In this document: positions 34,254 to 59,454 of the stretch, one piece after another
Numbering within the stretch: position 1 is the stretch's first letter
Layout: each line of letters opens with the position of its first letter
Assembly (NCBI RefSeq): GCF_001938985.1
Contig: NZ_MKIN01000021.1
Location: 744,001-808,000, forward strand
Origin: Gillisella taibaishanensis
Lineage (GTDB): Bacteria; Pseudomonadota; Alphaproteobacteria; Rhizobiales; Rhizobiaceae
Reading direction: 5' to 3'
DNA: 64,000 nucleotides
The notes under the pieces: model-generated
Told to the model about the DNA's origin: nothing
The model's database searches: none
The model's input: only the letters and a program-made list of their open reading frames with translations
Position numbers and translations under genes: made by a program

Positions 34254-34269
34254 CATCAGGCGGCCAGTC

Positions 34270-36197: not shown

Positions 36198-37029
36198 TCA
36201 ATCGCCAGTCATTTCAGTGCGCGACCTCAACGTACGCTTCGCTCAAAACACGCTTCAGGCCGTGTCCAACGTCAGTTTTGATATTGGTTGCGAACGTGTG
36301 GGCATCGTTGGAGAATCCGGTTCGGGCAAGTCGACCACGGGACGCGCCCTGATGCGGCTCCTGCCGCCAAGCGCAGTGGTCACGGCTGAGCGTATGGCGT
36401 TCGGCGGCGAGGCGCTTCTCGCAAAGAGCGAACGGCAGATGGGTACCCTGCGCGGCAAAGACATAGCCTTGATCATGCAGGACCCGCGCTATTCGCTCAA
36501 TCCACTGCTGCGGATCGGTAAACAGGTGGCAGAGGCGGCAAGCTTGCACCTGGCTCTGAAAGGCAAAGCTGCATATGAGCAGGCAAGAGCGATGCTCGAG
36601 CGTGTCCGCATCGACAACCCGGAACGGGTGATGGCGCTTTATCCGCACCAGATCTCCGGCGGCATGGGGCAGCGCGTAATGATCGCGATGATGCTTATCG
36701 CGCGCCCGAGGCTCGTTATCGCCGACGAGCCGACATCGGCACTCGATGTCAGTGTCCGGCGCGACGTCCTGATGTTGCTGGATGAACTGGTTCGCGAGAA
36801 CAATTCGGGGCTGCTCCTGATCAGTCACGATATCCGGATGGTTGCTGCCTTCTGTGAACGGATCCTTGTTATGTATGCCGGGCGCGTCGTCGAGACGCTG
36901 ACCAGGCTGGAGGATGCTGCCCATCCCTATACGCAGGGCCTGATAGCGGCGTTGCCCGATCCCCGCCATCCCGTCCGCAGGTTGAAGATTTTCGATCGCA
37001 GCGCACTCAACGCGGAGCTTGCGCAATGA
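36184..37029 (+). CDS. Peptide ABC transporter ATPase (DppD type)
   Basis: 281 residues from the ATG at 36184, which overlaps the upstream permease by 14 bases. Walker [10 protein letters not shown] (43-51), signature [13 protein letters not shown], Walker [13 protein letters not shown] and switch [10 protein letters not shown] are present. The usual C-terminal extension with the iron-sulfur cysteines of OppD/DppD is absent: the protein ends soon after AALPDPRHP, so it is a short version. Confidence 0.9.
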
Positions 37030-37763
37030 TTAAAGTTGAAAAACTGGACGTCGTCTTTGGCGCCAACAAGAGCCGAAATCATGTTGTTCGCAACGTAAGC
37101 TTCGATGTCGCCTCCGGCGAAACGCTGGGGATCGTCGGTGAATCCGGTTGCGGAAAGTCGACGGTTCTACGAGCCCTGGCTGGCATAGAAGCTGGATGGA
37201 CTGGCAGCATCGCCTTCGACGGCCGGCCAATTGGCAAGATACGCACACGAGACGAGTTGTTGCGGGCGCAAATGGTCTTTCAGGATCCTTATGGATCATT
37301 GCATCCTCGCCTGCGGATCGGCACAGCGCTTGCCGAACCAATCCGCTCGATGGGACTGGGCGACGGTTGGGATCAGGCGCAGCGGGCTTTGGTACAGGTC
37401 GGCTTGCCAGCGGCGTTCGCAAACCGGTTCCCGCATGAACTATCGGGCGGTCAGCGTCAGCGCGTTGCGATTGCCCGCGCTCTTATCCTCGAGCCGGCGA
37501 TCCTGCTGCTGGATGAGCCGACATCGGCGCTCGACGTCTCCGTGCAGGCGGAAATCCTCAACCTGCTTGCTGACCAGAAAGACGAGCGCAACCTCACTTT
37601 TGTGCTTGTCAGTCACGATCTATCGGTCATTGCACATATGTGCAATCGGGTGCTGGTCATGAAGGACGGCACATTTGTCGATGAGCTGACACAGCGGGAT
37701 CTTGAACAGGGTATTACCCATGCAGACTACTCGCGGCAGCTGTTCGAGGCGAGTTTTCTCTAG
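37026..37763 (+). CDS. Peptide ABC transporter ATPase (DppF type)
   Basis: 245 residues. Walker A GESGCGKST (38-46), signature [15 protein letters not shown], Walker [13 protein letters not shown], and switch VSHDLSVI. It lacks the long C-terminal tail of DppF. It overlaps the DppD-type gene by four bases and ends the operon. Confidence 0.92.
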   Translation: MIKVEKLDVVFGANKSRNHVVRNVSFDVASGETLGIVGESGCGKSTVLRALAGIEAGWTGSIAFDGRPIGKIRTRDELLRAQMVFQDPYGSLHPRLRIGTALAEPIRSMGLGDGWDQAQRALVQVGLPAAFANRFPHELSGGQRQRVAIARALILEPAILLLDEPTSALDVSVQAEILNLLADQKDERNLTFVLVSHDLSVIAHMCNRVLVMKDGTFVDELTQRDLEQGITHADYSRQLFEASFL

Positions 37764-38025: not shown

Positions 38026-38859
38026 ATGAAAATGAAGAATAGCAGCAAAAACACGTTTACCTGGACCCGCCGCGCGGGACTTGCCGCCCTCCTCGCCGGG
38101 GCCATTGCCGGTTTCGGCCTGCCAACGGCGCAGGCGGCGGACAAGACGATCAAGGTCGGTATCATCAGCGGTGAGGATGAAGATGTCTGGCGGGCCGTGA
38201 CCGCTGAAGCCGCCAAGAAGGGGCTCACCATCAAGACGGTGGTCTTCAATGACTACACTCAGCCTAACGAGGCGCTGGAGCGGGGCGAAATCGACGCCAA
38301 CGCCTTCCAGCACAAGCCCTACCTTGACAACCAGATCAAGCAGCATGGGTATCACATCGTGCCGGTAGGCTATACCGGTGTCTGGCCGATCGGCCTCTAT
38401 TCGAAAAAACACAAATCGATTGCCGATATTCAAAGCGGTGCACAGATCGGCGTTCCCAATGACCCCTCCAATGAAGGACGGGCTCTGTGGGTGCTGCAGA
38501 ATGCAGGCCTGATCAAGCTGAAGGACGGAACCGGCATCCTGGCAACCGTTGCAGACGTCGCCGAAAACCAAAAGGGCATCAAGATCAAGGAACTGGACGC
38601 CGGTATTGTCGGTCGCTCCATTGATGATCTGGACGCCGCAGTCGTCAACACCGACTGGGCGTTAAAGTCGGGTCTCAGCCCTGCCGAGCGCATCGCGCAA
38701 GAGCCCATCACGGATAATCCCTATCGTAATTTCATTGCTGTCAAACAGGGGAATGAAAATCAGGAGTGGGTGAAGACGCTGGTCGCGTCCTACCAGAACG
38801 ACAGCGTCAAAGCCGTCTTCGAGAAGGTCTACAAGGGAACCGGCCTCATTGCTTACTGA
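38026..38859 (+). CDS. metQ: MetQ/NlpA-family substrate-binding protein
   Basis: 277 residues. A possible Tat signal (TWTRRAGLAALLAGAIAGFG, cut near AQAA) precedes the family pattern IKVGIISGEDEDVWRAV, FNDYTQPNEALERGEIDANAFQHKPYLDNQ and GLYSKKHKSIADI. There is no lipobox cysteine, so this is probably a soluble periplasmic form. It delivers methionine or a related sulfur compound to MetN/MetI. GAGGCAC is upstream of the ATG at 38026. Relatives with an N-x-F-Q-H motif bind D/L-methionine; some bind other ligands. Confidence 0.88.
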   Translation: MKMKNSSKNTFTWTRRAGLAALLAGAIAGFGLPTAQAADKTIKVGIISGEDEDVWRAVTAEAAKKGLTIKTVVFNDYTQPNEALERGEIDANAFQHKPYLDNQIKQHGYHIVPVGYTGVWPIGLYSKKHKSIADIQSGAQIGVPNDPSNEGRALWVLQNAGLIKLKDGTGILATVADVAENQKGIKIKELDAGIVGRSIDDLDAAVVNTDWALKSGLSPAERIAQEPITDNPYRNFIAVKQGNENQEWVKTLVASYQNDSVKAVFEKVYKGTGLIAY

Positions 38860-38886
38860 CAGGGCGATCGGTTTTTAGGTTTTCAC

Positions 38887-38908
38887 GGCGGCGGGCACAC
38901 CCGCCGCC
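38887..38908 (+). promoter_or_regulatory. RNA hairpin between metQ- and metN-type genes
   Basis: GGCGGCGGG and CCCGCCGCC form a perfect 9-bp GC stem with loop CACA, 27 bases after the binding-protein stop. No U-run follows, so it likely attenuates or stabilises rather than ending transcription. Confidence 0.6.
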
Positions 38909-38932
38909 TCTCGCTATTTGGAGAAAATGGTC

Positions 38933-40012
38933 ATGAACAGCCATGCTTTCATACCCGTGGGCATTGAGGCGAGCGAATCCCTGCCGCATCTGAAAGACGA
39001 GGTCGTGCGACTCGTCGATGTGCGCCGGCGGTTCAATCGGACGATCGCCCTTGACGGCGTTTCCCTGTCCGTTCCAAAGGGGCAGATTCTTGGTATTATC
39101 GGCCGCAGCGGTGCCGGCAAATCCACGCTCATCCGCTGCCTGAATGGACTTGAACGTCCCGATAGTGGTCAGATCGTCATTGAGGGCAAACGGATCGATC
39201 AATTGCCGGAGCGGTCGCTGCAACCTCTGCGCCGCCGCATCGGCATGATCTTCCAGCACTTCAATCTTCTGTCGGCCAAAACGGTGGAGGCCAATGTTGC
39301 CCTGCCCCTTAAAATCGAAGGCGTCCCGAAGGCTGAACGGCTGGCCCGCGCCCGCGAACTGCTGGATCTGGTAGGATTATCGGACAAGGCAAAGGCCTAT
39401 CCGGCACAGCTTTCCGGCGGCCAAAAGCAACGTGTGGGCATCGCTCGGGCGCTTGCCGCCCGCCCAGCTCTGCTTCTCTCAGACGAGGCAACCTCGGCGC
39501 TCGATCCGGAAACGACCCGCTCCATCCTTGCGCTGCTCAGGGACATCAATAAAAAGCTTGGCCTCACCATCGTGCTGATTACCCACGAAATGGATGTGGT
39601 GCGCACGATTGCCGATCGAGTTGCCGTCATCGATGCGGGACGGATTGTTGAGGAAGGGGACGTCCGCAGCGTCTTTGCCAATCCGCAAGCGCAGATCACC
39701 AAAAGTCTTCTGGCGGGTAGCCGGCCGCAACTCCCTGGCCATCTCGAAACGAGACTTGGTCCATCGGGAGATCAGATCGTGGTCAGCGTGGATTTACTGG
39801 GTTCCTACGGCCAACAGCAGTTTTTTGCCGATCTGGCACAAACCATTAAAAATGGCGGCGCACTTCTTCAGGGTAGCCTGGAGCATATACAAGGTGAACC
39901 CGTTGCTCGTTTCTTTATCGGCATTCCCGCAGGAAACACTGCGATCCTGGAACGCCTTCGCATGAAGATCGAGGCCGCCGGCGCACGTCTGGAGGTTCTC
40001 GGATATGTCTGA
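38933..40012 (+). CDS. metN: Methionine ABC transporter ATPase with NIL domain
   Basis: 359 residues. Walker A GRSGAGKST (57-65), Q-loop MIFQHFNLLSAKTV, signature LSGGQKQRVGIARAL, Walker B LLLSDEATSALD. Residues from about 270 form the NIL regulatory domain (VSVDLLGSYGQQQFFADLAQTIKNGGALLQGSLEHIQG) that senses cytoplasmic ligand and trans-inhibits uptake. GGAGAAAATGG precedes the ATG at 38933; ATG 38927 is possible. Stop overlaps metI by eight bases. Confidence 0.9.
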   Translation: MNSHAFIPVGIEASESLPHLKDEVVRLVDVRRRFNRTIALDGVSLSVPKGQILGIIGRSGAGKSTLIRCLNGLERPDSGQIVIEGKRIDQLPERSLQPLRRRIGMIFQHFNLLSAKTVEANVALPLKIEGVPKAERLARARELLDLVGLSDKAKAYPAQLSGGQKQRVGIARALAARPALLLSDEATSALDPETTRSILALLRDINKKLGLTIVLITHEMDVVRTIADRVAVIDAGRIVEEGDVRSVFANPQAQITKSLLAGSRPQLPGHLETRLGPSGDQIVVSVDLLGSYGQQQFFADLAQTIKNGGALLQGSLEHIQGEPVARFFIGIPAGNTAILERLRMKIEAAGARLEVLGYV

Positions 40013-40670
40013 CATCATGATTGACTTACTGCTCAGCGCCATCTGGGAAACCCTGCTGATGACGCTTGCCTCCGGGCTGATTTCGCTGCTCGCCGGGCTA
40101 CCACTGGGTCTGGCCCTCGTGGCAACAGACAAAGGTGGACTTGCGGAAAACCGATGGATCAACAGCGGCCTTGGCGCAATCGTCAACGCCTTCCGCTCCG
40201 TGCCCTTCATCATCCTGCTGGTGGCGCTCATTCCCGTCACGCGCCTCATCGTTGGCACGGCACTCGGCACATGGGCGGCGATTGTGCCCCTGTCGATCGC
40301 AGCTACGCCCTATTATGCCCGCATCGCCGAAGTTTCGTTGCGGGAGGTGGACCGCGGCCTCATCGACGCGGTGCGGGCGATGGGCGGCAACCGCTGGACC
40401 GTGATCCGAGAAGTACTGATCCCTGAAGCGCTCCCGGGCATCATCGCCGGCTTCACCGTCACTCTCGTCACCCTGATCGGGGCCTCGGCCATGGCCGGCG
40501 CCATTGGCGCTGGTGGTCTTGGCGATCTCGCCATCCGCTACGGTTACCAACGGTTCGAAACCGGCGTCATGGTTGCAGTGGTCGTGGTGCTGGTCATTCT
40601 CGTCTGTGGCATCCAATGGATTGGAGACCGGGTCGTCGCGGCGCTCTCGAGCAGACAGACGTCTTCCTAG
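40005..40670 (+). CDS. metI: Methionine ABC transporter permease
   Basis: 221 residues with five membrane helices. FRSVPFIILLVALIPVTRLIVGT and AIRYGYQRFETGVM are typical of MetI. The coupling loop is EVDRGLIDAVRAMGGNRWTVIREVLIPEALPG. It completes the MetQNI-type transporter. Confidence 0.92.
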   Translation: MSDIMIDLLLSAIWETLLMTLASGLISLLAGLPLGLALVATDKGGLAENRWINSGLGAIVNAFRSVPFIILLVALIPVTRLIVGTALGTWAAIVPLSIAATPYYARIAEVSLREVDRGLIDAVRAMGGNRWTVIREVLIPEALPGIIAGFTVTLVTLIGASAMAGAIGAGGLGDLAIRYGYQRFETGVMVAVVVVLVILVCGIQWIGDRVVAALSSRQTSS

Positions 40671-40827: not shown

Positions 40828-41805
40828 CTATCCTCTTTGTGTCTTGCGGGTAGCGAAGCTCAATGCAAGCACGAGAAAGATCAGTAGGCCTGTCCCGACC
40901 TGCTGCCAGTAAAAATTCAACCCGCTGAGGAGCAGCCCGTTGGACACGATGGCGAGAAGCAGAACACCCAGGATCGTTCCGAGAACATTGGGGCGGCCAT
41001 GCGGATGGATCGTTGTGCCGATAAAGGCGGCGCCAATTGCATTCAGCAGAAAGGCGTTGCCTGAATTGGGAATGTAAACAGTGATCGTCGATGTCAGGAT
41101 CAGGCCGGCGAACGCGGCAGTCAACCCGACCAGGATGTAGGCGCCACCGAGATAGAGCCGTAGCGGCAGGCCTGAATAACGAACCACATCGGGTTGGACG
41201 CCCGACGCGATAACGACGCGACCAAACCGGGTCTGACCAAGGAGGAAAGCCGCGACTGCCGCAAGCGCCAAGGCCGCTAGCAACGACAGCGGAATGCCAA
41301 CGATCGTACCGTGGCCGAGCGCCCTGAAGCTCTCGGGAATACCCGATTGCGATAGATAGATCGGATTACCGCCGTTGGTGAGGAGTTGCTGAATACTCCT
41401 GCCAACGAAAAGCGTGCCGAGGGTTGCCAGAAACGGCGACAAGCCAACGCCTGAAATCAGCAGCGCATTGAAAAGGCCCACCAACGCCCCTGCTCCCAAT
41501 CCAGCGAAAAGCGCTAGCCACACGGGGTTTCCAGCCAAAACCAGAGAAACAAAAGCGAAGCTCGCAAAGTCGATTGCCGCCCCCACCGAGAGATCAATGC
41601 CGCCGGACGCTACGGCGAAAGTCATAGCCACCGCGACGACGGCAAGCAAAGTGAAGTTGTTGACGAGCAGGCTCTGCAGGTTGCCTGTCGTCAGGAAGCT
41701 CGGGGCCGTGAGAGCAAAGGTCGAGAACACGATCACAAGCGCGGCCAAGAGCGCCGAGCGAGCACCGAGGGCCATGAGACTTCCGGAGATAGCCCGATAT
41801 GACAT
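40828..41805 (-). CDS. Ribose-type ABC permease 2
   Basis: 325 residues, RbsC/BPD_transp_2 family. [21 protein letters not shown] is the family signature, with about ten helices. AGGGAAAG precedes the ATG at 41805; the gene starts two bases after the other permease stop. The ten-helix pattern and GTLFVGRSIQQLLTNG support a sugar/autoinducer-like importer, but the operon points to a sulfur or amine substrate. Confidence 0.9.
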   Translation of the reverse strand: MSYRAISGSLMALGARSALLAALVIVFSTFALTAPSFLTTGNLQSLLVNNFTLLAVVAVAMTFAVASGGIDLSVGAAIDFASFAFVSLVLAGNPVWLALFAGLGAGALVGLFNALLISGVGLSPFLATLGTLFVGRSIQQLLTNGGNPIYLSQSGIPESFRALGHGTIVGIPLSLLAALALAAVAAFLLGQTRFGRVVIASGVQPDVVRYSGLPLRLYLGGAYILVGLTAAFAGLILTSTITVYIPNSGNAFLLNAIGAAFIGTTIHPHGRPNVLGTILGVLLLAIVSNGLLLSGLNFYWQQVGTGLLIFLVLALSFATRKTQRG

Positions 41806-41807
41806 GA

Positions 41808-42827
41808 TCAGCTTTCCCTGCGAATGAGCGTTGTCGCAGACACCGTCAGTAGAATGAGGACACCTTGAACGCCGCTGACAAGCGTGCTGGACAAGTTGAG
41901 CAGTTGAAACCCATTGAGAAGGACGCCGACAAACAGCGCCGATAGCAGCGTGCCACCAATCGTAGGAACAAGCCGCCTAGAAAAGACCGATCCCAGGAGA
42001 GCCGTGACAACGACAGGCAGGAGCATTTCACCAGAGCCGGTGCTGGAACCGCTGAGATAGGCGGTGTTCAGGATGCCCGCGATGCCCCCGCAAAACCCGC
42101 TGATCAAAAACGAGGCTGAAACATATGCCTTGACCGGGATACCTGCCGCCCGCGCCGCTTCCGGAAACTCCCCCACGGCGTAGAGTCTAAGGCCAAAGCG
42201 CGTGTTCTGGATGATCAGCCCCATCACAAGCGAAAATCCGATCAGGACATAACCGAGCGACGGTATCCCGAACAGAGCGCCAGACGAAAGGTCAGTCAGT
42301 AGATCGCTGGAGGCTGGTATGACGGTATTTTCCGTCAGCACCAGTTCAAGCCCTGCGACGACATTCATGACCGCAAGTGTCGCGAGAAGTGGGACGATAC
42401 CGATCTGCGCCACGGCCAAAGCGTTGACGGCTCCGATGATCAGCCCTGTACCCAGTGCGGAGAGTGCTGCAAAGCCGTCGCCGTATCCCATCTGAAGGAG
42501 GCTCGCGTAGACGGCGGCGCTGAGGCCCATATTGGCCGCCAGCGAAAGATCGATACCACCGGTGACGACATTTGGACCTCCCGCGATGACCACAACCGTC
42601 AACCCGATCGCCAGCACCCCGGTCACTGCCGTCTGGCCAAGAATGTTGCCGATGTTGAAAATCGACAAAAAGAAGGGTGCCGATGTTGAAAAGATGACGA
42701 GAATAACGAGAAAGGTCAAAAGCGCCCCATAGCGCAAGGCTGCAACCGCAAGGCGCGTTCTCCCCTTAGCGCTAGGCTTGGGTCGCCTTCTTTTAACGAA
42801 CGCATAGTTTTGGGCATCAACCGACAT
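41808..42827 (-). CDS. Ribose-type ABC permease 1
   Basis: 339 residues, RbsC family. VVTGGIDLSLAANMGLSAAVYASLL is the signature. A polar amino-terminal part of about 30 residues is basic (KRRRPKPSAKGRTR). It overlaps the ATPase gene by 11 bases and is followed immediately by the second permease, so the transporter is a heterodimeric membrane unit. Confidence 0.9.
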   Translation of the reverse strand: MSVDAQNYAFVKRRRPKPSAKGRTRLAVAALRYGALLTFLVILVIFSTSAPFFLSIFNIGNILGQTAVTGVLAIGLTVVVIAGGPNVVTGGIDLSLAANMGLSAAVYASLLQMGYGDGFAALSALGTGLIIGAVNALAVAQIGIVPLLATLAVMNVVAGLELVLTENTVIPASSDLLTDLSSGALFGIPSLGYVLIGFSLVMGLIIQNTRFGLRLYAVGEFPEAARAAGIPVKAYVSASFLISGFCGGIAGILNTAYLSGSSTGSGEMLLPVVVTALLGSVFSRRLVPTIGGTLLSALFVGVLLNGFQLLNLSSTLVSGVQGVLILLTVSATTLIRRES

Positions 42828-44361
42828 GACGCGACCTTTCCGGGGCTCCGGTCGCCTCTGCTAGAATTTCTGTTGCTGTCGTATGGCTGGAAAGAAGTTC
42901 ACAGGTAATCCGCCCCCGGAACATCACCAGGACGCGATCAGCGAGCCCTACCAATTCGTCGAGATCGGACGAAAGAAGAATAATGCTGGCGCCTTGTGCT
43001 GCAAGGTCGGCAATCAGACTGTAGATTTCGGCCTTCGCACCGATATCGACCCCCACGGTCGGCTCATCCAGGAGATAAAGTTCGGTGTCGCGCCCGAGCC
43101 ATTTGGCGATCGCCACCTTTTGTTGATTACCGCCGGAGAGGGAACGCACCAGCGCTCTAGGGCCGGATGTCTTGATTTGCAGCTTGCGGATCAATTCCTG
43201 GGTTGCGTTTTCCTCGGCGCGTGGATCAAGCCGACCAAACCGGAGAAAGCGTCCGAGATTGGCAAGTGTTGTATTTTCCTGCACCGTCATCTCGAGAGCG
43301 ACTCCATGTCGGCGCCGGTCCTCCGGCACGAGGGCGATACGTGCTCTCGCCGCTTGTCTGGGCGTGTCGAAACGCAGTTTCCGTTCGCCGATGACAATTT
43401 CTCCCGACGTCGCAGCTTCAAGCCCGAAGAGGACCCGCATGAGATCCTTCGCTCCCGAGCCAAGCAGTCCTGTCAGACCCAGGATTTCGCCGCGCCGAAG
43501 CGTAAAGGACAACGGTTCGAATTTTCGATCGAGCGCGAGATCACGCACCCGAAGATAATCTGTGCCGATTGCGGAATGACGAGGCGGGAAGAGATCACCG
43601 GCTTCTCTGGCCACCATTAGCTGGCCAATTTCCGCAGCCGATGTGTCGGAAAGAGAAAGCGTCGCCACGTCACGGCCATTCCGCAAGACGGTCACAGCAT
43701 CGCATATCTCTTCGATTTCCCGCAGGTAATGAGAGATGTAGAGGATGGTAACCCCTTCTCCTGCGAGGCGGCGGATCAACCCGAACAGGATGTCCGCCTC
43801 TCGACGCACCAGCGCCGCTGTCGGTTCATCGAACACGAGGATCTTGGGCTTGCGAATGAGTGCACGCGTGATCTGGATTATCTGCTTTTCAGCGGTCGTA
43901 AGATCCGCGATCAGCGCGCCGTCCGGGAGTTCAAGATCAAAGTAACTCTTGAGCAACCGCGCCGCCTCACGCCGCATGCCGGAGCGATTGAGAAGCTGCA
44001 AGCCGCCATATACAGGCTCGTCGCCAAGAAACAGCGCCTCGCCAACGCTAAAGCTCGGTGGCAGCAACCGGTCCTGGTGAATGAAGTGGATGCCTAATGC
44101 CTCCGCGAGCTTGGGGGTCAGGCGGTCCTGCGGCGTGCCACAAATCTCAATGATGCCTTCGTCAGGCTGATAAAGCCCGGCGAGGATCTTGATCAACGTG
44201 GATTTACCTGCACCGTTTTGCCCGACAAGACCGTGCACCGATCCCCGCCCAACCTCCAGCGCCGCTCCGTCAAGCGCCCGGGCGCCGCCGAACGTCTTGA
44301 CGATCCCGGTCATGCGCAGAACGCTTGCACCGGTCGTCGGTTGCCCACAAAATTCGTTCAT
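42817..44361 (-). CDS. Ribose-type ABC ATPase with two nucleotide-binding domains
   Basis: 514 residues, RbsA/MglA/XylG type. Domain 1 has Walker A GQNGAGKST (47-55) and Walker B ILVFDEPTAAL; domain 2 has the degenerate Walker A GLLGSGAKDL and signature LSGGNQQKVAIAKWL with Walker B LYLLDEPTVGVD. The protein reads as intact. It is separated from the binding-protein gene by a 65-base gap with a hairpin. Confidence 0.92.
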   Translation of the reverse strand: MNEFCGQPTTGASVLRMTGIVKTFGGARALDGAALEVGRGSVHGLVGQNGAGKSTLIKILAGLYQPDEGIIEICGTPQDRLTPKLAEALGIHFIHQDRLLPPSFSVGEALFLGDEPVYGGLQLLNRSGMRREAARLLKSYFDLELPDGALIADLTTAEKQIIQITRALIRKPKILVFDEPTAALVRREADILFGLIRRLAGEGVTILYISHYLREIEEICDAVTVLRNGRDVATLSLSDTSAAEIGQLMVAREAGDLFPPRHSAIGTDYLRVRDLALDRKFEPLSFTLRRGEILGLTGLLGSGAKDLMRVLFGLEAATSGEIVIGERKLRFDTPRQAARARIALVPEDRRRHGVALEMTVQENTTLANLGRFLRFGRLDPRAEENATQELIRKLQIKTSGPRALVRSLSGGNQQKVAIAKWLGRDTELYLLDEPTVGVDIGAKAEIYSLIADLAAQGASIILLSSDLDELVGLADRVLVMFRGRITCELLSSHTTATEILAEATGAPERSRHVG

Positions 44362-44386
44362 CGCGATACTCCGGAACAGGACTGCC

Positions 44387-44408
44387 GGCTCCCACAGCGG
44401 TGGAGGCC
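44387..44408 (-). promoter_or_regulatory. RNA hairpin between binding-protein and ATPase genes
   Basis: GGCTCCCAC and GTGGAGGCC pair at 7 of 9 positions with a four-base loop, in the gap after the ribose-type binding-protein stop. Placed as the other SBP-trailing hairpins in this window. Confidence 0.45.
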
Positions 44409-44426
44409 GATCGAAGAGTAGAGACG

Positions 44427-45434
44427 TCAGCCAATGCCAAGTTTTTTGCTGACATCAGCCACGTTGGTCTTGTTGGCGAGCAGGGCTGGGACATAGGTCT
44501 CACGCGGCAATGTCTGACCCGCCAACAGCCGGGCGACGTTGCGGATGGCGGTCCGGCCAAGTTCGGCGGGCTGCTGGGCGACGTCTGCGGCAGCCGGTGA
44601 TTTCGGGTCGGCGACGAGCTGCAGGACTTCGGGGCTGCCATCTACGCCGTAGGTCTTGATCTCTGTACGGCCAGCGGCTGACAGCGCTTGCGTTGCGCCA
44701 AGCTGCGGAATATCCCATGCGGACCAGATCGCTTTGATCGATCCCTTTTCCGGATAGCGATTGAGGATGGCGGTGATCTGGGTGAACGCGTCCTGCACCG
44801 TGTTGGGGATGACGTCGCGCAGCTCAGGCTTGATAATCTCGACCTTCGGAAAATATTTCACGACATTGACAAGCTGATCGTAGCGGATCGCGCAGGGCGT
44901 AACGCCATAAAAGCCATTGAACACGACGATCTTGCCTTCGCCACCGATGTCCGACACCAGCTGCAGTGCGAGATCCTTGCCGATACCCCAATTATCCGAG
45001 GTGGAATTGTTCAGCGAATTGGTAGAACCGACATCGATGGTCAGGACCGGAATGCCCGCGTCACGTGCCTTTTTAAGCCATGGATCAATAACGGTCAGCG
45101 TTCCCAGCAACTGGACGATCGCGTCAGGCTTCTGGGCGATCAGCGTTTGCAGCTGCGACACGAGTTTACCGTCATTGCGGCCCGCATCGACCGCGATCGG
45201 TTCGCCGCCAAGACGTTTTACCTCCTCGATCTGGGCATTATAGGCATGCAGGTCGAAGAAGTGATCGGTGCCTGCTGCGCTGATGCCAATGCGTTTGCCT
45301 TTGAGCGAAAGTTCGCCGTCGGCAAGGCTGGGTCGAGCGCCGATCATGGCGGCCCCGGCGACGGACGCTCCTGCGAGTGCCGTGAATTTCAAGAGATCGC
45401 GCCGGCCAAGACCTGTGCTGCTGTCGTTCGTCAT
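44427..45434 (-). CDS. Ribose-type periplasmic binding protein
   Basis: 335 residues, Peripla_BP_4 fold. ACAGGAGGCACTT sits just before the ATG at 45434. A Tat signal peptide (GRRDLLKFTALAGASVAGAA) is unusual for this family and may mean folding or cofactor/ligand binding before export. KGKRIGISAAGTDHFFDLHAYN begins the first lobe. Ligand unknown; monooxygenase genes directly upstream suggest a sulfur- or nitrogen-containing compound. Confidence 0.88.
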   Translation of the reverse strand: MTNDSSTGLGRRDLLKFTALAGASVAGAAMIGARPSLADGELSLKGKRIGISAAGTDHFFDLHAYNAQIEEVKRLGGEPIAVDAGRNDGKLVSQLQTLIAQKPDAIVQLLGTLTVIDPWLKKARDAGIPVLTIDVGSTNSLNNSTSDNWGIGKDLALQLVSDIGGEGKIVVFNGFYGVTPCAIRYDQLVNVVKYFPKVEIIKPELRDVIPNTVQDAFTQITAILNRYPEKGSIKAIWSAWDIPQLGATQALSAAGRTEIKTYGVDGSPEVLQLVADPKSPAAADVAQQPAELGRTAIRNVARLLAGQTLPRETYVPALLANKTNVADVSKKLGIG

Positions 45435-45472
45435 AAGTGCCTCCTGTAGGAATTGGTCCGTCGAATGCCGCT

Positions 45473-46687
45473 TCAGAGAGCCCCATTCTTGGGCGGCAAA
45501 ACGCCGTTGAGCAGGTAGTTGCCCACAGCATGAAACTTCCACCGCACGGGATCATGCAGCGTGTGGGTGCGGGCGTTGCGCCAGTGCCGATCGAAATTGT
45601 GTTCGGCCCGCGCCGATTGCGTGCCCGCGAGTTCGAACAACGTGTTTGACGCCTCAAGCGCGGCCTCTGTTGTCAGTACCTTGGCGCTGGCGACAGCGAG
45701 GGTTGCCGCAAGCGTGTCGGACTCAGAGAGCGTTTCACGCGCCCGATCGACCTTGCGGCCTGCTTCGGCGATGAGTGCCGCGCCAGCATCAATCCGAACG
45801 GCAATCTGGCCGACCCGGTGGATCGTCAGTGGATCTTCGGAAGCCTTCTCGACGCCGGCATCCATCCACGGTCGCGAGCGGCTGGTGACGAAGGTGATCG
45901 TATCGCGAAGTGCCGCGCGGGCAATGCCGAGGTCGACGGCTGCCTGAATGATCTGTCCCACGGATCCGATGGTCTGCGGACGTTCGAAACTCCGGTGATG
46001 CCGGACGACCGCATCACCGGGCACGTGGACATTGTTGAGAACTGTGGTACCCGAGCCGGTTGTGCGTTGCCCGATGCCGTCCCAGTCATCAACGAGTTCG
46101 ATGCCCTGCGTACCCTTCGGCGTGAAGGACATGGTGAGCTTCTCGTTTTCGTCATTGGCAAAGATGACGATCCAATCGGCAAAAAGGACCCCGGTGGAAT
46201 AGAACTTTTTGCCATTGATGACGAAGCCCTCACCATCAGGACGGATCGTCGTATTGTAATGTCCGACGGTTTTTGTACCGATCTCGGAAAGCGCGTTGCC
46301 AAACTTGTCGCCCGCAAGAGCCCGGCCGAAATAGAAAGCCTTCTGCTCCTCCGATCCCTCAATGCGCAAGGCTTCGAGAATATAGAAGTGATTTTGCGGG
46401 ATCTGGCCGATTGATCCGTCAGCTTCCGCCAGAAGGGCTATCACCTCGCCGAGTACCGCGTTGGAAACATCGATCCCGCCATAGGCTTTGGGAACAGTAA
46501 TCGCCAACAGGCCGGAGCGCGCGAGTTCGTCCATCTCCTTGTACGGCAGAACGCGATCACGGTCGCGGATGGCAGCGCCTTCCGCAAAGCGCAACGACAG
46601 GGCGCGTGCGACATCAAGAGCTTCCGCTTCATTGTGGATGCGATGGGCGGCGCCATCGGTCTTAAACTGCAGCGCGTGGCTGGTCAT
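45473..46687 (-). CDS. SfnB-family acyl-CoA-dehydrogenase-fold flavoenzyme 1
   Basis: 404 residues. ACAD amino-terminal helices (YKEMDELARSGLLAITVPKAYGG), the middle strand domain with NALSEIGTKTVGHYNT and the C-terminal four-helix part ending DRHWRNARTHTLHDPVRWK match SfnB/DszC proteins of the group D flavin monooxygenases, which use FMNH2 from a partner. The catalytic Glu of true acyl-CoA dehydrogenases is not conserved in this group. AAGAGGGG precedes the ATG at 46687. It lies 38 bases upstream of the binding-protein gene. Confidence 0.85.
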   Translation of the reverse strand: MTSHALQFKTDGAAHRIHNEAEALDVARALSLRFAEGAAIRDRDRVLPYKEMDELARSGLLAITVPKAYGGIDVSNAVLGEVIALLAEADGSIGQIPQNHFYILEALRIEGSEEQKAFYFGRALAGDKFGNALSEIGTKTVGHYNTTIRPDGEGFVINGKKFYSTGVLFADWIVIFANDENEKLTMSFTPKGTQGIELVDDWDGIGQRTTGSGTTVLNNVHVPGDAVVRHHRSFERPQTIGSVGQIIQAAVDLGIARAALRDTITFVTSRSRPWMDAGVEKASEDPLTIHRVGQIAVRIDAGAALIAEAGRKVDRARETLSESDTLAATLAVASAKVLTTEAALEASNTLFELAGTQSARAEHNFDRHWRNARTHTLHDPVRWKFHAVGNYLLNGVLPPKNGAL

Positions 46688-46712
46688 CTCTTTACCCCTC
46701 TTCGAAACGATG

Positions 46713-47984
46713 TCAGGCGGCGGCCGGCGCGGCGCCAGTTTGGGCGGTAGACACAGCGGTGGGCGTTTCGCCGATGCGCCATTGATAGGGCGGCGGCGTC
46801 CCGTTGACGGCAAAATTGCCGACGATCCGATCCTTGTAGATACGGGGGTTGTGGGAGGACAGCGTGCGGGCATTGCGCCAGTGCCGATCAAGAGCGGCCG
46901 AGCTTTTCACCGCGGATGCACCAAGCGTGTCGAACAAGATTGTCGAGGCTTCGAGAACAAGATTGGTGACCACGCCCAGCGCCTGCGACGTCTCGAGTTC
47001 GGCAACGGCATTGGCGCGCTCCTCAGCCTCTGCATTGCCCGCGAAATGGCCGGCGTAAGCCCGCTCGAGAGAGGCTGCGACCTGCAGCACGATGGCGCCC
47101 GCCGCATAGGCATTGGACCGAATGCGGCCGACCACCTGGAGGATCTGCGGGTCCTGGCTCGAACGCGGCCCTGCTGCATTGGAGAATTGGCGCGTTCGGG
47201 CAGCAACGGCCAGCGCTGTTTCCTTGGCGATTGCCCGACCGATGCCGGCCAGCGTTGCCAGATGCACCGTCTGATAGAAGGCCGCAGCATAGCGGAATTT
47301 ATCGTCGTCCAGAACGATATCGATCGGATCGACGGACGCATTCGAAAATATGGTCGTACCGCTGGCGGTGAGTTTCTGACCGAAGCCGTCCCAGTCGTCG
47401 ACGACACGAACGCCCGGATCATCGCGGCGGACGAGAACGGTCACGGCTTCGCCATCAAGGCCAGTCGCGCCGACATCGATCCAGTCCGCGAAAAGCGATC
47501 CGGTCGTATAATATTTCGTACCGTTCAGAACCAGATTTGCCCCTTTGCGTGCGATATGGGTCGCAAAAGTCGCCTGACTTGCATTGCCGATCTCCGTCCA
47601 GGCATTGCCGGCAATTTCGCCCTTGGCAATCCGCTCCGACCAACGTGTGCGGAAGCCGCCGGGAGCCGTATTGACGACGTTTTCGGCGAAACCGAAATGC
47701 CCGCGCAGCGCCTGGGTCACATTGGAATCGGCAGCAGACAATTCGATAAGCAGATTGAAGAATTCCGGAAGCGTAGCGCCGAAGCCGCCCTCGCTTTCCG
47801 GCAGGCGAAGCGCGCCGAAGCCTACCTCTTTCACGCTGTTGATCTCCGCCACCGGAAGGATACGACCCGTCTCGCGGGAGACGGCGCCTTTCTCGATCTC
47901 AGCGAAAAGCGGACGAAATCGCTTGGCCAGGTCTTCATAGCGCAAGGAAGGACCAGCTCCCCAGGCCTCATCGATCTGTGACAT
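46713..47984 (-). CDS. SfnB-family acyl-CoA-dehydrogenase-fold flavoenzyme 2
   Basis: 423 residues, paralogue of the gene at 45473 (same start pattern, VAEINSVKEVGFGALRLPESEGGFG, GNAWTEIGNASQATF, and the DRHWRNARTLSSHNP C-terminal helix). The C-terminus carries an extra Ala/Thr-rich tail. AGGTGCATC precedes the ATG at 47984. Two such enzymes side by side resemble dsz- or sfn-like operons where different oxidation steps use separate flavoproteins. Confidence 0.85.
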   Translation of the reverse strand: MSQIDEAWGAGPSLRYEDLAKRFRPLFAEIEKGAVSRETGRILPVAEINSVKEVGFGALRLPESEGGFGATLPEFFNLLIELSAADSNVTQALRGHFGFAENVVNTAPGGFRTRWSERIAKGEIAGNAWTEIGNASQATFATHIARKGANLVLNGTKYYTTGSLFADWIDVGATGLDGEAVTVLVRRDDPGVRVVDDWDGFGQKLTASGTTIFSNASVDPIDIVLDDDKFRYAAAFYQTVHLATLAGIGRAIAKETALAVAARTRQFSNAAGPRSSQDPQILQVVGRIRSNAYAAGAIVLQVAASLERAYAGHFAGNAEAEERANAVAELETSQALGVVTNLVLEASTILFDTLGASAVKSSAALDRHWRNARTLSSHNPRIYKDRIVGNFAVNGTPPPYQWRIGETPTAVSTAQTGAAPAAA

Positions 47985-48018
47985 GATGCACCTATGCTGT
48001 TTTAACGGATTGCGACGC

Positions 48019-49437
48019 TCAGGCGCCCACGGTCTTGAGTTGCGGCTTTCCCACCTCGGCATCACGGCGCTTTACCGCCTCGATGTCCCGGTAACGGTCG
48101 GCAGGATGGCTAGCGGGAAGGTAGGGGCCGTCACCAAACAGCTTCTCCCTGAGGGTGCCGGGCTTATAGGCTGTCGGATAGGCGCCACGCTTCTGAAGCT
48201 CGGGAACGATATGCTCGACGACATCCTCGAAACTGCCGGGCGTCACTGCATAAGCAATATTGAAGCCGTCGACATCGGTGTCGGCCACCCATTCTTGCAA
48301 GATATCGGCGATCGTCTGCGCGGAGCCTACGAAGACCGGACCCATACCGCCGATACCACCGAACTTGGCCAGTTCATCCATCGTCCAGGACTTATCGCCG
48401 CCGGCAATATGCTCGACGAAGGAATGGATGGCGTTCGTTTCCACCTTCTGAATGATGTCAGTGGGCGCATATTGGCCAAAGTCGATGCCGCTCCAACCCG
48501 ACATGAAGACCAGCGAGCCGTCATATGAGACGTAACTCTTGTAATCCTCAAATTTCGCTTGGGCCTTTTCCTCGGTCTCATCAGTGATGATCGTGATCAG
48601 CGTGTAGATATAGACCTTCCTTGGATTGCGACCTGCCTTGGCAATCCGCTCGCGAATGTCGGACACATAAGCCTTGAGAACGGACTTGGTGGGGGCGGCG
48701 ACAAAAATGCATTCCGCGTTTTCGGCAGCAAACGCCTTGCCTGGCCCCGAAGCACCGGCCTGATAGAGCACCGGCATGCGCTGTGGGGACGGCTCCGTCA
48801 GTTGGTAACCCGGCACATCGAAATATTTTCCTTTGTGAGCGATCTCATGGACCTTCGAAGGGTCGGTGAAGATCCGCCGGTCGCGGTCGCGCACGACAGC
48901 CCCCTCCTCCCAGGATCCTTCGAGCAACTTGTACAGCACCTCGAGATATTCGTTGGCGGTCTCGTAGCGGTTGTCATGACGCTGAAGCCCGGCCTGACCG
49001 ACATTCTTGGCACCGCTTTCCAGATAGGAAGTAACGATGTTCCAGCCCAAGCGCCCCTTGCTGTGATGGTCGGCCGTCGCCAGCCGGCGGGCAAAAGTAT
49101 AGGGATGCTCGAACGACGTGGAGGCGGTGACCCCGATACCCAAGTGTTCAGTCGCAAGCGCGATGGGCGCGACAAGCTGTAGCGGATCATTGACCGGTAT
49201 CTGCGCGGCTTGCTCGATAGCGTGATGGTTCGAGCCATTGTAGACGTCGTAATAACCGATGACGTCGGCGATAAAAATTCCATCGAACACGCCTCGCTCA
49301 AGCGTCCGTGCAAGATTTTGCCAGTAATCCAAGTCCTTGTAGGTCCACGACTGGTCCTTCGGATGCGCCCAGAGCCCTGGCGATTGGTGGCCGACACAGT
49401 TCATGTCGAAGGCGTTGAAACGGATCTGGCGTGTCAT
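48019..49437 (-). CDS. NtaA/SnaA/DszA-type LLM class flavin monooxygenase
   Basis: 472 residues, bacterial luciferase-like TIM barrel. GHQSPGLWAHPKDQSWTYKDLDYW and ADHHSKGRLGWNIVTSY (the FMN/active-site loop) are characteristic of nitrilotriacetate and dibenzothiophene-sulfone monooxygenase A subunits. These cleave C-N or C-S bonds using reduced flavin from a separate reductase, which is not visible in this window. AAGAGGTGATCC lies before the ATG. It is the first gene of the operon. Confidence 0.9.
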   Translation of the reverse strand: MTRQIRFNAFDMNCVGHQSPGLWAHPKDQSWTYKDLDYWQNLARTLERGVFDGIFIADVIGYYDVYNGSNHHAIEQAAQIPVNDPLQLVAPIALATEHLGIGVTASTSFEHPYTFARRLATADHHSKGRLGWNIVTSYLESGAKNVGQAGLQRHDNRYETANEYLEVLYKLLEGSWEEGAVVRDRDRRIFTDPSKVHEIAHKGKYFDVPGYQLTEPSPQRMPVLYQAGASGPGKAFAAENAECIFVAAPTKSVLKAYVSDIRERIAKAGRNPRKVYIYTLITIITDETEEKAQAKFEDYKSYVSYDGSLVFMSGWSGIDFGQYAPTDIIQKVETNAIHSFVEHIAGGDKSWTMDELAKFGGIGGMGPVFVGSAQTIADILQEWVADTDVDGFNIAYAVTPGSFEDVVEHIVPELQKRGAYPTAYKPGTLREKLFGDGPYLPASHPADRYRDIEAVKRRDAEVGKPQLKTVGA

Positions 49438-50139: not shown

Positions 50140-51339
50140 CTAATGCTCTGAATTTAAAGCTTGCTTGACACGCAAGATCGTCAGACAGACCGTCCCGATC
50201 ACAATCGGGATCGCTATTAGCATCACCATGGGATCAATATGATATCCGGCGTGATCCGCGGTTTCGAAGGTGACTTTGAGAAGACTTAAAAGATAATAGC
50301 TGATGGCGATGATCGAAAAACCTTCGACCGCCCGCTGGATCTTGACCTGCGTTGCCGCTCTTTCGGCCATTGCTCTGATCTGGACGGCATTCTGGTGCTC
50401 GATCTCCACCTGGATTCGTGTCTGCAAAAGATTGATCAGATGAGTTGTCGCCTGTGAAAGTTGCTCAAGACGCAACGCTGTTGCCTGACAGGTCCGGACG
50501 GCAGGTTTGAAGCGGCGTTCCACGAAGGTGCCGTAGCGCTGGAACCCCGGCACATGGGTCTCTCGCAACGATGCTATTCGCTCCTCGACAATCGTCGTAT
50601 AGGCCGCGGTCGCGCTGAACCTATGACGAACTTCGGATGTAGCCGAGATGATCTGCGATGCTAGTACCGTAATGTCAGCCAAGAGACCCTTGTGCTCGTC
50701 TGACGGGGTCTGAAGATTCCTGTTGGTCAGTTCAATCAACCGTCGGTCATAGTCGGAGATCATGGGAGCCAGACTCTGTGCAACGGGGAGCCCAAGCAAA
50801 GCCATGGTCCGATAGGTCTCAATTTCAAAGATACGCCGGACCATCCGCCCGAGCCGGCGTGCGTTGAGTTCCCTGTTCAGCATAAGGATTCGACTGGAGC
50901 CATCTTGCATGACCTTGAAGTCAGAGCATATCTGCGCAGAGCCGCCGCCGATAGATGATACGGCAGTGTCACCGAAACTGAAACTCGACAGATACGAGGA
51001 TATATCCGCGGAAACTTTGTCGACAACCAATATCGAAACGCGGCAAATCTGCTTTGGTGAAGCGATACCCGTCAGTTCCAGAACTTCAAGATCCGATAGT
51101 TCCGAAGCAGGCCATTCTGAGGCCTCAGCCGTCAATTTCCGCAGTCTCGTTACGGTGACGAACTCGGTGTGGCGCTCCACACGCAACGTAACATCTGCGT
51201 CGTGCGACTGCGTGTCATGAAATCCCAGGGGGCTGGCTTCACCTCGCATGATGGCAACATGCTCGACGAAAGCTGGCCCATCAAAATAGATCGACGGGCG
51301 CGCATGTAATTCTGCATTGAAATCCGAAAACGATCTCAT
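50140..51339 (-). CDS. DUF3422 membrane protein
   Basis: 399 residues. The start NAELHARPSIYFDGPAFVEHVAIM is diagnostic of DUF3422, followed by long helical/coiled parts (RMVRRIFEIETYRTMALLGLP, QTRIQVEIEHQNAVQIRAM) and two C-terminal membrane segments (FSIIAISYYLLSLLKV and MLIAIPIVIGTVCLTILRV). Function is unknown; the family is widespread in Alpha- and Betaproteobacteria. No operon partner. Confidence 0.88.
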   Translation of the reverse strand: MRSFSDFNAELHARPSIYFDGPAFVEHVAIMRGEASPLGFHDTQSHDADVTLRVERHTEFVTVTRLRKLTAEASEWPASELSDLEVLELTGIASPKQICRVSILVVDKVSADISSYLSSFSFGDTAVSSIGGGSAQICSDFKVMQDGSSRILMLNRELNARRLGRMVRRIFEIETYRTMALLGLPVAQSLAPMISDYDRRLIELTNRNLQTPSDEHKGLLADITVLASQIISATSEVRHRFSATAAYTTIVEERIASLRETHVPGFQRYGTFVERRFKPAVRTCQATALRLEQLSQATTHLINLLQTRIQVEIEHQNAVQIRAMAERAATQVKIQRAVEGFSIIAISYYLLSLLKVTFETADHAGYHIDPMVMLIAIPIVIGTVCLTILRVKQALNSEH

Positions 51340-51818: not shown

Positions 51819-51908
51819 ATGATGCAAGAAGCTTATGGCCGCTTGCGGCCGATAACTGTGACAAGTCTATCTGCCGAAATGGCAAGGTGGGCCGCGAATG
51901 GCCGCTGA
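51819..51908 (+). CDS. Possible 29-residue leader peptide, ribose-type operon
   Basis: ATG at 51819 follows CGGGAGGAATTGG. The frame encodes 29 residues (MMQEAYGRLRPITVTSLSAE...) and its TGA overlaps the ATPase start (51898) by 11 bases, so translation of the ATPase may be coupled to it. The 71-base distance from the shared promoter element to this ATG resembles the 79 bases before the transketolase start, which supports it as the first translated frame. Alternatively the ATPase site (AAGGTGGG) acts alone. Confidence 0.45.
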   Translation: MMQEAYGRLRPITVTSLSAEMARWAANGR

Positions 51909-53361
51909 TAAGCTTCCGTTGATTTCGGTTCGTAACCTTCAAAAGAGCTTTGGCGTAACGAAGGTTCTGCGAGGTGTGAATTTCACCGTCAGCGCTGGCC
52001 AGATCCACGCCCTGCTCGGCGGCAATGGCGCCGGAAAGAGTACGATGATCCGTATCATCACCGGCGGCATCCGGAAGGATGACGGCGAGATCTCCCTTTC
52101 CTCACAGCGCGATACCGAGCCGAAAATTGCCGTAGTCCACCAGGAACTCGCGCTACTTGCCGATCTGTCGGTCGCCGAAAACATCGCAATCGTCCATGCC
52201 GCCTCGGCTAGGTCCTTCGTCCACGCCAGGAAGCAAGCGGAGATCGGCTATAAGGCGCTGTCATTGATTGATCCGCACCTTGCAAATACCGCCCTTCATC
52301 GCCGGGCAGCCGATCTTTCTATGCACGAGGGCCAAATCGTAGAAATAGCGCGGGCGCTGTCGACCGGTGCTGACGTAATTATGCTGGACGAACCGACAGC
52401 CAATCTCACGGCAGGGGAAACAGAACGCCTCTTTGCTGTGCTGCGCCGGTTGGTGACGGAGACAAATATCGGCATCGTCTTCGTTTCCCACCGTATGAAA
52501 GAAATCCGACAGCTTTGCGATGTCTGCACGATCATCCGCGACGGCATGACGGTGATTGATGCCGCCCCGCTCGAAAGCCTCACTGACGTCGAGATCGTGC
52601 ATCACATGGGGCAACCGGACGCGCGCAACGAGATACCTGCCCGACGCAAGATCGATCACGCAGATGTCGGTCTGGTCCTCAAGGGACCGGAATGCGCAGT
52701 CCCGGTTCTCAAAGGCCAAATCCTCGGCCTTGCCGGTGCTCCTGCAGGTCCCAGCCAAGTGATCGCCTTATTGAATGGCACCGCGCGTTCCAGCACCTGG
52801 GTTTTGGAAGCAGAGGGATGGCCAGAAAGGCCCATGTCGCCCCGCCAGGCGGTAGAACTCGGCATCGGCTATGTTTCAGGGGATCGTCGCAGTAAGGGTG
52901 TCCTTGCGCAATTGCCCATCATCGACAACGTGTTGGCGTCGCGCAGGGTTCGGGAGGGGCGGGTGTTCGTCCGGCGTTCGGAGCGCGCAGAGTGCCTTGA
53001 TCTCGTTCAAGCCCTGAAACTGAAGGCCGGCTCTATCCTTGATCTTCCCTCTACATTGTCCGGCGGCAATCAACAGAAGCTACTCATCGCCCGTTGGCTC
53101 GGCATGTCATTGCGGCTTGTCGTTTTTGAAGAGCCGACCCGTGGCGTCGATATTGGCACCAAACGCGACATCTACGAACTGATCCGCCGCATGGCCGATG
53201 CCGGGACCATCGTCATCTGGTGGTCGACGGAAAATGTAGAGCTTCTCGAACTGTGCGATGAAATCCTCGCTTTTGATACGGATGGGCAGGCGAAGGGCCT
53301 GCTGCAATCCAGCCAGTTCAATGAAGACGCTCTGGCAGACCTCACGGGAATGGCGGCATGA
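51898..53361 (+). CDS. Ribose-type ABC ATPase, two domains
   Basis: 487 residues. Walker A GGNGAGKST (41-49), Walker B VIMLDEPTANL; domain 2 has a strongly degenerate Walker A (GAPAGPSQ), LSGGNQQKLLIARWL and Walker B LVVFEEPTRGVD, in which Glu replaces the usual Asp. The D-loop/H-loop region of domain 2 reads WWSTENVELLELCD. A duplicated NBD with one weak catalytic site is normal for RbsA-like proteins. Overlaps the permease by four bases. Confidence 0.9.
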   Translation: MAADKLPLISVRNLQKSFGVTKVLRGVNFTVSAGQIHALLGGNGAGKSTMIRIITGGIRKDDGEISLSSQRDTEPKIAVVHQELALLADLSVAENIAIVHAASARSFVHARKQAEIGYKALSLIDPHLANTALHRRAADLSMHEGQIVEIARALSTGADVIMLDEPTANLTAGETERLFAVLRRLVTETNIGIVFVSHRMKEIRQLCDVCTIIRDGMTVIDAAPLESLTDVEIVHHMGQPDARNEIPARRKIDHADVGLVLKGPECAVPVLKGQILGLAGAPAGPSQVIALLNGTARSSTWVLEAEGWPERPMSPRQAVELGIGYVSGDRRSKGVLAQLPIIDNVLASRRVREGRVFVRRSERAECLDLVQALKLKAGSILDLPSTLSGGNQQKLLIARWLGMSLRLVVFEEPTRGVDIGTKRDIYELIRRMADAGTIVIWWSTENVELLELCDEILAFDTDGQAKGLLQSSQFNEDALADLTGMAA

Positions 53362-54350
53362 ATACGAAAGCACGATCCATGACTTCGAACGACAAGAACA
53401 GCCCTACGCCGCGTGCTCCCTCCGTCCTGTTGGCCTACCGCTCGGAACTGGCAATTGCCATGGCCTGTGTAGCGCTTCTGGTTGGTGTCGGCATTTTTGT
53501 ACCCGCCGCCCTTTCCTCAGGCAACTTTGCCAATATTCTGCAGGCGTCTGCGCCGTTGGTGATCATGTCGCTCGGCGTGCTCGTGGTGATTATAACCGGA
53601 GGGATCGATCTCTCGGTTGGATCGATCTTTTCTTTGACGGGCATGGTTACGGCGTTGGCCATGGCCAACGGCTTCGGCGATGTGACCGCGAGCCTTCTTG
53701 GTCTGGGAGTTGGCATCGTCTTCGGGTCGATCAATGGCGCGCTCATCACACTTGTCGGGCTTGCACCCTTCGTCGTCACGCTCATCACATACGCGGTGGC
53801 CGCTTCGCTCGCATTCATCGTCACCAATGGTCGCTCGCTGGGCGTTGATTCCTCTGATTATTGGCTGCTCAACAGTGGCGAACTTTTGCCAGGCATCCCC
53901 AATTTCGTGGTCTTCTGTCTCGTCTTAACAGTCGTGCTGGAATTCGTGTTGCGGAAAATTACGGCCGGGCGCTGGTTCTATTCGGTAGGTAGTTCGCCAA
54001 TGGCCGCCTACCTGCTGGGAATTCCGGTGAAACGCACACGCTTCGCCGCCTATGTGATCTCTGGGACCATGGCATCCTTTGCCGGTCTTCTGACGGTCAG
54101 CTACATCTTGAACGCAGAAGCGACCGCCGGCGCCTCGCTGATGCTGCAGGCAATTGCCGCTGTCGTGATCGGCGGGGCGAGCCTTGCAGGCGGCACTGGG
54201 TCTGCCGTGGGCGCCGTGCTCGGCGCGCTGATGATCACCATCATCCAGAATGGCGTCAATCTTATAGGCATCAACAGTTTCTGGCAGGGGTCCGTCACAG
54301 GTCTAGCAATTCTGGTGGCGGTTCTCATCGACAGATTTAGTCATCGATAA
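53358..54350 (+). CDS. Ribose-type ABC permease
   Basis: 330 residues, RbsC family with about ten helices. [20 protein letters not shown] is the signature. Only one permease is present here, so it probably acts as a homodimer, unlike the two-permease system at 40828-42827. Confidence 0.9.
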
Positions 54351-54370
54351 AAAGCTCAAGGAGGAGGAGC

Positions 54371-55333: not shown

Positions 55334-55339
55334 TCGAAT

Positions 55340-55368
55340 GGCCGGAAGCGGATCTACCGCCTCCGGCC
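55340..55368 (+). terminator. Strong hairpin after binding-protein gene
   Basis: GGCCGGAAGCGG and CCGCCTCCGGCC match at 11 of 12 positions around ATCTA, seven bases after the binding-protein stop, and are followed by TTATC. It may end or process the ABC operon transcript before the lactonase gene at 55412. Confidence 0.6.
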
Positions 55369-55411
55369 TTATCAGCACCATCGCCCTTTTACATCCGATC
55401 GGCTTCTATCG

Positions 55412-56305: not shown

Positions 56306-56426
56306 CCGCTCGATATCAGCCGGAGAATACATAAATAACCGTCAGGCGACGTCCCAAAAGCGCCGCCTCGACTTCCTGCCGCTCGAGCCATGGATCGCGC
56401 CGGAGCAATCGGCTACCATACACATC

Positions 56427-57413: not shown

Positions 57414-57432
57414 TCGATTGCAGCACCGTCAA

Positions 57433-59411: not shown

Positions 59412-59454
59412 AAGCCGCCGAATTCATTCACAGTTATCGGGAGGAGAAAGGCTC

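Follow-up and report, generated by a model that had tools for sequence, protein, structure and literature searches.

An operon joining a ribose-type importer to three flavin monooxygenases recurs in Rhizobiaceae and may scavenge sulfur from thioether sugars

Operon organization

We analysed a 64,000-nucleotide stretch of the Gillisella taibaishanensis genome (contig NZ_MKIN01000021.1, positions 744,001–808,000; hereafter the window), which carries an operon combining a sugar-type ATP-binding cassette (ABC) importer with three flavin monooxygenases. The host belongs to the Rhizobiaceae and has a 5.4 Mb genome. The operon lies at positions 40828–49437 on the minus strand and consists of seven head-to-tail genes, all present in the order given by a preliminary description of this DNA made from the sequence alone. 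The first encodes a DmoA-type, flavin mononucleotide (FMN)-dependent monooxygenase of the luciferase-like (LLM) TIM-barrel kind, with a proposed role in C–S bond cleavage (48019–49437). It is followed by genes for two monooxygenases with an acyl-CoA dehydrogenase fold, both proposed to act in S-oxygenation, one SfnB/DszC-like (46713–47984) and one SfnB (45473–46687). The remaining four encode a CUT2 solute-binding protein with a twin-arginine translocation (Tat) signal (44427–45434), a two-domain ATPase (42817–44361), permease A (41808–42827) and permease B (40828–41805). Because the gaps between them are tiny (34, 25, 38, 65, −11 and 2 bases from the monooxygenase end to the permease end), the seven genes very probably form a single transcription unit. 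Gene starts at 45434, 46687 and 47984 were preferred to those of the longest open reading frames.

The importer has the CUT2 sugar-type make-up, with two ABC_tran (PF00005) stretches in an ATPase of the sugar-importer family, BPD_transp_2 (PF02653) in both permeases and Peripla_BP_4 in the binding protein. None of its components reached the NCBIfam equivalog cut-offs for RbsA (425 versus 745 bits), RbsB (59 versus 337 bits) or RbsC (121 and 106 versus 398 bits).

Conservation of the linkage across Rhizobiaceae

Using a sample of 297 Rhizobiaceae genomes, we found the binding protein (E up to 1e-120) in 22 and the DmoA-type gene (E up to 1e-200) in 35. The latter was present in 21 of the 22 genomes with the binding protein (Fisher 6e-22, a p-value that is merely indicative because the genomes are related), and in 17 of the 22 the two genes lie at most 15 kb apart. 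Among the other five, three (G088, G304 and G076) carry the DmoA-type gene on another contig and the importer by itself, in G068 an SfnB-type gene immediately follows the importer, and G132, whose binding protein is 57% identical, is the only one without a DmoA-type gene. In total, a DmoA-, SfnB- or DszC-type gene stands in the same-strand run of 18 of the 22 importers.

Gene order within these runs varies widely. Some read binding protein–ATPase–permease A–permease B–SfnB, some continue from there to DmoA, some start with MetQNI-type genes before the binding protein and end with DmoA, and others differ again, which implies that the association was re-formed or retained on many occasions. A locus of Allorhizobium terrae found through DmoA similarity, and not among the 22 (L023), has the exact order of the window, and at an Agrobacterium vitis locus (L020) DmoA- and SfnB-type genes stand beside such a binding protein. 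The joining of importer and monooxygenases, to which the preliminary description had drawn attention, is therefore a recurrent unit and not a chance arrangement.

Monooxygenases and flavin supply

The product of 48019–49437 belongs to the NtaA/DmoA family TIGR03860 (537.8 bits against a curated cut-off of 279.7), and its top-scoring solved relative is dimethyl-sulfide monooxygenase (PDB 6ak1, 522 bits). YtnJ (CmoJ) is another solved relative, and hexachlorobenzene dehalogenase and riboflavin lyase belong to the same family. The score against the alkanesulfonate monooxygenase model was 64 bits, under its cut-off of 518. The enzymes acting on nitrilotriacetate or ethylenediaminetetraacetate and DszA are far more distant than the dimethyl sulfide (DMS) enzyme; the aminocarboxylates, furans and thiophenes named in the preliminary description consequently find no support, and its thiosugar is the best-supported ligand class. 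Of the 20 FMN- and substrate-binding residues predicted for DmoA (listed in PMC9259527), 19 are kept, the exception being L367, which is Met here.

The SfnB assignment of the product of 45473–46687 rests on TIGR04022 (587.9 bits, cut-off 430.9). Its neighbour encoded at 46713–47984 scored 263.8 bits, below that cut-off, and is classed only as SfnB/DszC-like within the same superfamily. Solved relatives of both include DszC and methanesulfinate monooxygenase, and neither reached the DszC model NF043015 (223.1 and 92.4 bits, cut-off 850).

The preliminary description also noted that the window holds no flavin reductase. This stands for PF01613, which has five matches in the whole genome and none in the window, while the SsuE/MsuE-type family (PF03358) was covered only by a Pfam scan of part of the window's genes and was not searched genome-wide. 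The nearest PF01613 match lies about 12.5 kb before the window start and is RutF-like, in a stretch that also holds a RutA gene. Three relatives' loci include a PF01613 reductase (L023, tested directly; L123 and L142, by clustering). The apparent lack of a local reductase need not be an obstacle, because in Acinetobacter baylyi one flavin reductase supplies all the monooxygenases (PMC13352529).

Binding protein and ligand pocket

The binding protein is 89.5% identical over 294 residues to PDB 4wt7 and is an orthologue of the protein solved there, Avi_5165 of Agrobacterium vitis, whose structure contains bound allitol (PMC10318746); the preliminary description had overlooked this structure. All 16 pocket positions compared are identical between the two proteins. 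The Enzyme Function Initiative (EFI) structures derive from ligand screens, so the natural ligand may differ from allitol. A predicted structure of the window protein (mean predicted local distance difference test (pLDDT) score 47, 13 rows) was not used.

We also compared the pocket with the ribose-contacting positions of Escherichia coli RbsB. Phe15, Asp89, Ser103, Asn105, Arg141, Asp215 and Gln235 are kept, and Asn13, Phe16, Arg90, Asn190 and Phe214 are replaced by His, Asp, Val, Trp and Val, respectively. At the last three positions PDB 4ry8, titled '5-methylthioribose transporter solute binding protein TLET_1677', has Leu, Trp and Val. With Val in place of Arg90, the pocket would be more hydrophobic at that position. 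Judged from these residues, the pocket keeps the polar side chains that bind polyols yet is not a ribose site; such a pocket suits a thiosugar and, likewise, a six-carbon polyol.

The Tat signal, which the preliminary description took to suggest an unusual ligand, proved silent on this question, because it is a family-wide trait: among 32 related binding proteins, 30 have the pattern RRx[LFI][LIFV]K (GRRDLLK in the window protein), and stand-alone importer copies retain it too (L094, L139–L141). We therefore rejected it as a ligand clue.

A second importer resembling the 5-methylthioribose type

Related loci contain a second CUT2 importer (clusters c7, c8 and c10). Its binding protein, c7, is 37.5% identical to 4ry8, and its AlphaFold model (pLDDT 87.4) matched 4ry8 best (Z 39.3, root-mean-square deviation 3.0, 315 residues), ahead of a runner-up at Z 35.7 and others at 31 or below. 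Across the 297 genomes c7 (E up to 1e-140) was found in 18, in 16 cases together with the window-type binding protein (Fisher 9e-20). The two binding proteins lie at most 15 kb apart in eight of the 18, and at L124, L127 and L135 the ATPase and permease of the c7 importer share the run of the window-type importer. The genome under study has c7 as well, in another sulfur locus where contig C22 ends (L157, C22:1263341-1283339); this locus holds a DmoA paralogue, MetQNI-type genes, the c7/c8/c10 importer, a second c7-type protein, taurine-type importer genes with a taurine-binding protein over its cut-off, and an SsuD-like enzyme below its own.

A beta-propeller (LVIVD) protein adjoins the 5-methylthioribose-type importer at three loci (L157:13382-14593, L021:1862-3115 and L146:3240-4451). 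SBP56 proteins were reportedly named methanethiol oxidases in the title of one paper; we rejected that assignment for the beta-propeller protein, which scored 25.7 bits against the SBP56 cut-off of 34 and matched none of the solved structures even at an E value of 1. MtnK and MtnA were not found in the window's genome. This absence was dropped as support and is uninformative, because MtnK is similarly frequent with or without the operon (over its cut-off in seven of the 22 operon genomes, the same seven that carry MtnA, versus 111 of 297 overall).

Genomic neighbourhood

Downstream of the operon and convergent with it lies a MetQ–MetN–MetI-type importer on the plus strand (38026–40670), also passed over in the preliminary description. 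It comprises a MetQ/NlpA-type binding lipoprotein (38026–38859; TIGR00363, 238.7 bits, cut-off 228.9), a MetN-type ATPase (38927–40012; TIGR02314, 326 bits, below the cut-off of 500; cluster c13) and a MetI-type permease (40005–40670; NF008049, 236 bits, cut-off 212; cluster c11). All three are recurrent companions of the operon. We drew recurrent gene clusters from 37 related loci plus the window; their frequencies are biased, because several loci were picked by DmoA similarity. Besides the second CUT2 importer, they include a DszC-like protein (c6), SsuD (c14), O-acetylhomoserine sulfhydrylase (c12), MetQNI (c11, c13 and c17) and an FAD/NAD(P)-binding protein (c9). At L132, MetQ–MetN–MetI, the binding protein, the ATPase, the permeases and DmoA form one run (MetN assigned through c13), and the O-acetylhomoserine sulfhydrylase gene is in the importer's own run at L129 and, by clustering, at L126 and L130. 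These neighbours bear out the sulfur setting suggested in the preliminary description, which was right in what it observed and only partly supported in its interpretation. As a parallel only, MetQ/MetN proteins and O-acetylhomoserine sulfhydrylases go up in Rhodospirillum rubrum growing on 5-methylthioadenosine sulfur (PMC4958253).

Other genes were recorded around the operon and its relatives. Upstream on the same strand, across a 702-base gap, is a DUF3422 protein gene (50140–51339). Beyond it, 51898–60207 holds a further CUT2 ATPase and permease, then a fuconolactonase-like gene, a LysR-type regulator, the N-terminal part of a transketolase and a short-chain dehydrogenase. On the other side, directly before the MetQNI-type genes, is a Dpp/Opp/nickel-type ABC importer operon (32679–37763), and further out a nitrilase-type hydrolase gene (29563–30606) precedes one for a molybdopterin oxidoreductase akin to the SoxC/SorA sulfite dehydrogenases, below their cut-offs (30611–31627). 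Near the DmoA/SfnB genes of L123, an Rrf2-family regulator (L123:3018-3548) weakly matches CymR, a cysteine regulator. An Rfam search of the window gave zero matches, and hence no methionine-linked riboswitch; in seven relatives' loci it gave two tRNAs and nothing else. Promoter-like sites matched the expectation from shuffled sequence (4 against 3.4).

Proposed function and alternatives

On the basis of these observations, we consider it somewhat probable that the operon serves organosulfur scavenging, in which a thioether sugar or polyol is imported, S-oxygenated and cleaved at its C–S bond. The CUT2 importer would bring in a small sugar- or polyol-shaped thioether, such as an S-alkyl thiosugar. 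In the cytoplasm, the two SfnB/DszC-type monooxygenases would oxidize the sulfur from thioether to sulfoxide to sulfone, and the DmoA-type enzyme would cut a C–S bond, releasing methanethiol or methanesulfinate as a sulfur fragment with one carbon. This fragment may be converted to methionine via O-acetylhomoserine sulfhydrylase, or to sulfite via SsuD/MsuD-type enzymes encoded elsewhere, with FMNH2 supplied by a flavin reductase outside the window. The order import, S-oxygenation, C–S cleavage and methionine or sulfite formation is proposed from the DMS-oxidizing group D (acyl-CoA dehydrogenase fold) enzymes, from CmoO/CmoJ and from the kept DmoA residues. A. baylyi enzymes of that group convert DMS to dimethyl sulfoxide (DMSO) and then to dimethyl sulfone (DMSO2) (PMC13352529).

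Several observations weigh against this proposal. Four of the 22 importers have no monooxygenases in their run; the importer stands alone at L139, L140 and L141; and a copy on a Rhizobium leguminosarum plasmid, also without monooxygenases, adjoins glycerol genes. The most distant member, 58% identical (L153:3611-17819), lies in a run with a PfkB kinase, a class II aldolase and two short-chain dehydrogenases; such content is typical of sugar catabolism, and the run is probably a true polyol operon. The near-identical 4WT7 holds a plain polyol (PMC10318746), and the window protein is no closer to 4ry8 (26.2% identity) than to the ribose-binding protein 2ioy (26.0%), with Gln235, Asn105 and Ser103 matching the ribose-binding protein and not 4ry8. 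Finally, LadA (50.0% identity) and DmoA (49.6%) are equally close to the DmoA-type enzyme.

An ordinary polyol is a possible ligand, and the importer might feed on an allitol-like polyol or sugar as carbon, with monooxygenases of the DMS/dimethyl sulfone type merely sharing the locus and their substrates diffusing in. The bound allitol, the lone importers in three of the 22 genomes and on the R. leguminosarum plasmid and the kinase/aldolase operon of the 58% relative all point this way, as does DMS assimilation by such enzymes, known from PMC13352529, for which an importer would, we infer, be needless. We judge this explanation rather unlikely, if deserving real weight: among annotated genes, no sugar kinase or isomerase occurs in the importer's run in the 18 linked genomes (exceptions of possible sugar type being a GntP permease at L142 and, in L126-type runs, a zinc-type dehydrogenase belonging to the curcumin-reductase family), and the linkage survives many rearrangements, with sulfur importers joining repeatedly. 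The overall similarity to LadA, together with hexachlorobenzene dehalogenase and riboflavin lyase in the same family, would also suit a LadA-like system for hydrocarbons or xenobiotics, with an unrelated sugar importer hitch-hiking beside it. This is quite improbable, as the operon's enzyme keeps Gln18, Tyr138, Ala229, Gly231 and the Gly-x-Gly loop of DmoA, which LadA has changed or lost, one partner enzyme of the two scores above the cut-off of the SfnB model for sulfur acquisition and the neighbours are sulfur genes. A sulfonated or otherwise oxidized sugar resembling sulfoquinovose, a compound with established monooxygenase routes, appears highly doubtful as the ligand: those pathways employ an alkanesulfonate-type monooxygenase, whereas the enzymes here are of the thioether/sulfone type (DmoA, SfnB), the DmoA-type one falling far short of the alkanesulfonate monooxygenase cut-off.

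Within the thioether-sugar proposal, the foremost specific candidate would be 5-methylthioribose or something closely analogous, a choice that goes further than sequence can decide. When S-adenosylmethionine is used, sulfur ends up as a by-product in sugar-like thioethers, methylthioribose among them, and the known bacterial salvage routes begin with a kinase or phosphorylase. We tentatively put forward, as a scheme unlikely to hold in full, a kinase-free, oxygen-dependent salvage of 5-methylthioribose-type thiosugars in Rhizobiaceae through two paralogous CUT2 importers, group D S-oxygenases and a DmoA-type C–S monooxygenase, which would bypass both methylthioribose kinase and the methionine salvage pathway. 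If true, a dedicated importer with oxidative C–S cleavage would constitute a different aerobic salvage route and would provide a substrate assignment for 'ribose-type' importers and 'DmoA/SfnB' enzymes, which are widespread and named so far by similarity alone. Among the matches listed in the open-access literature, we found no account of this operon or of a thiosugar importer with such monooxygenases.

Comparison with known systems

Of the binding proteins, Avi_5165 (4wt7) is the closest, in overall identity and at the pocket positions compared; no physiological role for it was found in the literature examined. TLET_1677 (4ry8) is likewise a CUT2 binding protein and shares with the window protein the Trp at Asn190 and an aliphatic residue at Arg90, but their identity is only 26%, and the window protein retains several residues of the ribose-binding protein. 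The SsuABCDE and sulfoquinovose monooxygenase systems also pair an importer with a flavin monooxygenase for sulfur, although they use another importer class or another monooxygenase family. CmoO/CmoJ of the Bacillus subtilis S-alkylcysteine salvage pathway resemble the proposed pathway in using two flavoenzymes in succession, the thioether being oxidized and the sulfoxide then cleaved at its C–S bond; the substrate there is an N-acetyl-S-alkylcysteine (PMC10863075), whereas here the importer is of the sugar type and the candidate S-oxygenases have the acyl-CoA dehydrogenase fold. DmoA (6ak1) and the SfnB/Dms-type group D monooxygenases belong to the same enzyme families as those of the operon, which keeps nearly all predicted DmoA binding residues; identity to DmoA is only about 50%, however, and here the enzymes share one operon with a CUT2 importer that volatile DMS would not need.

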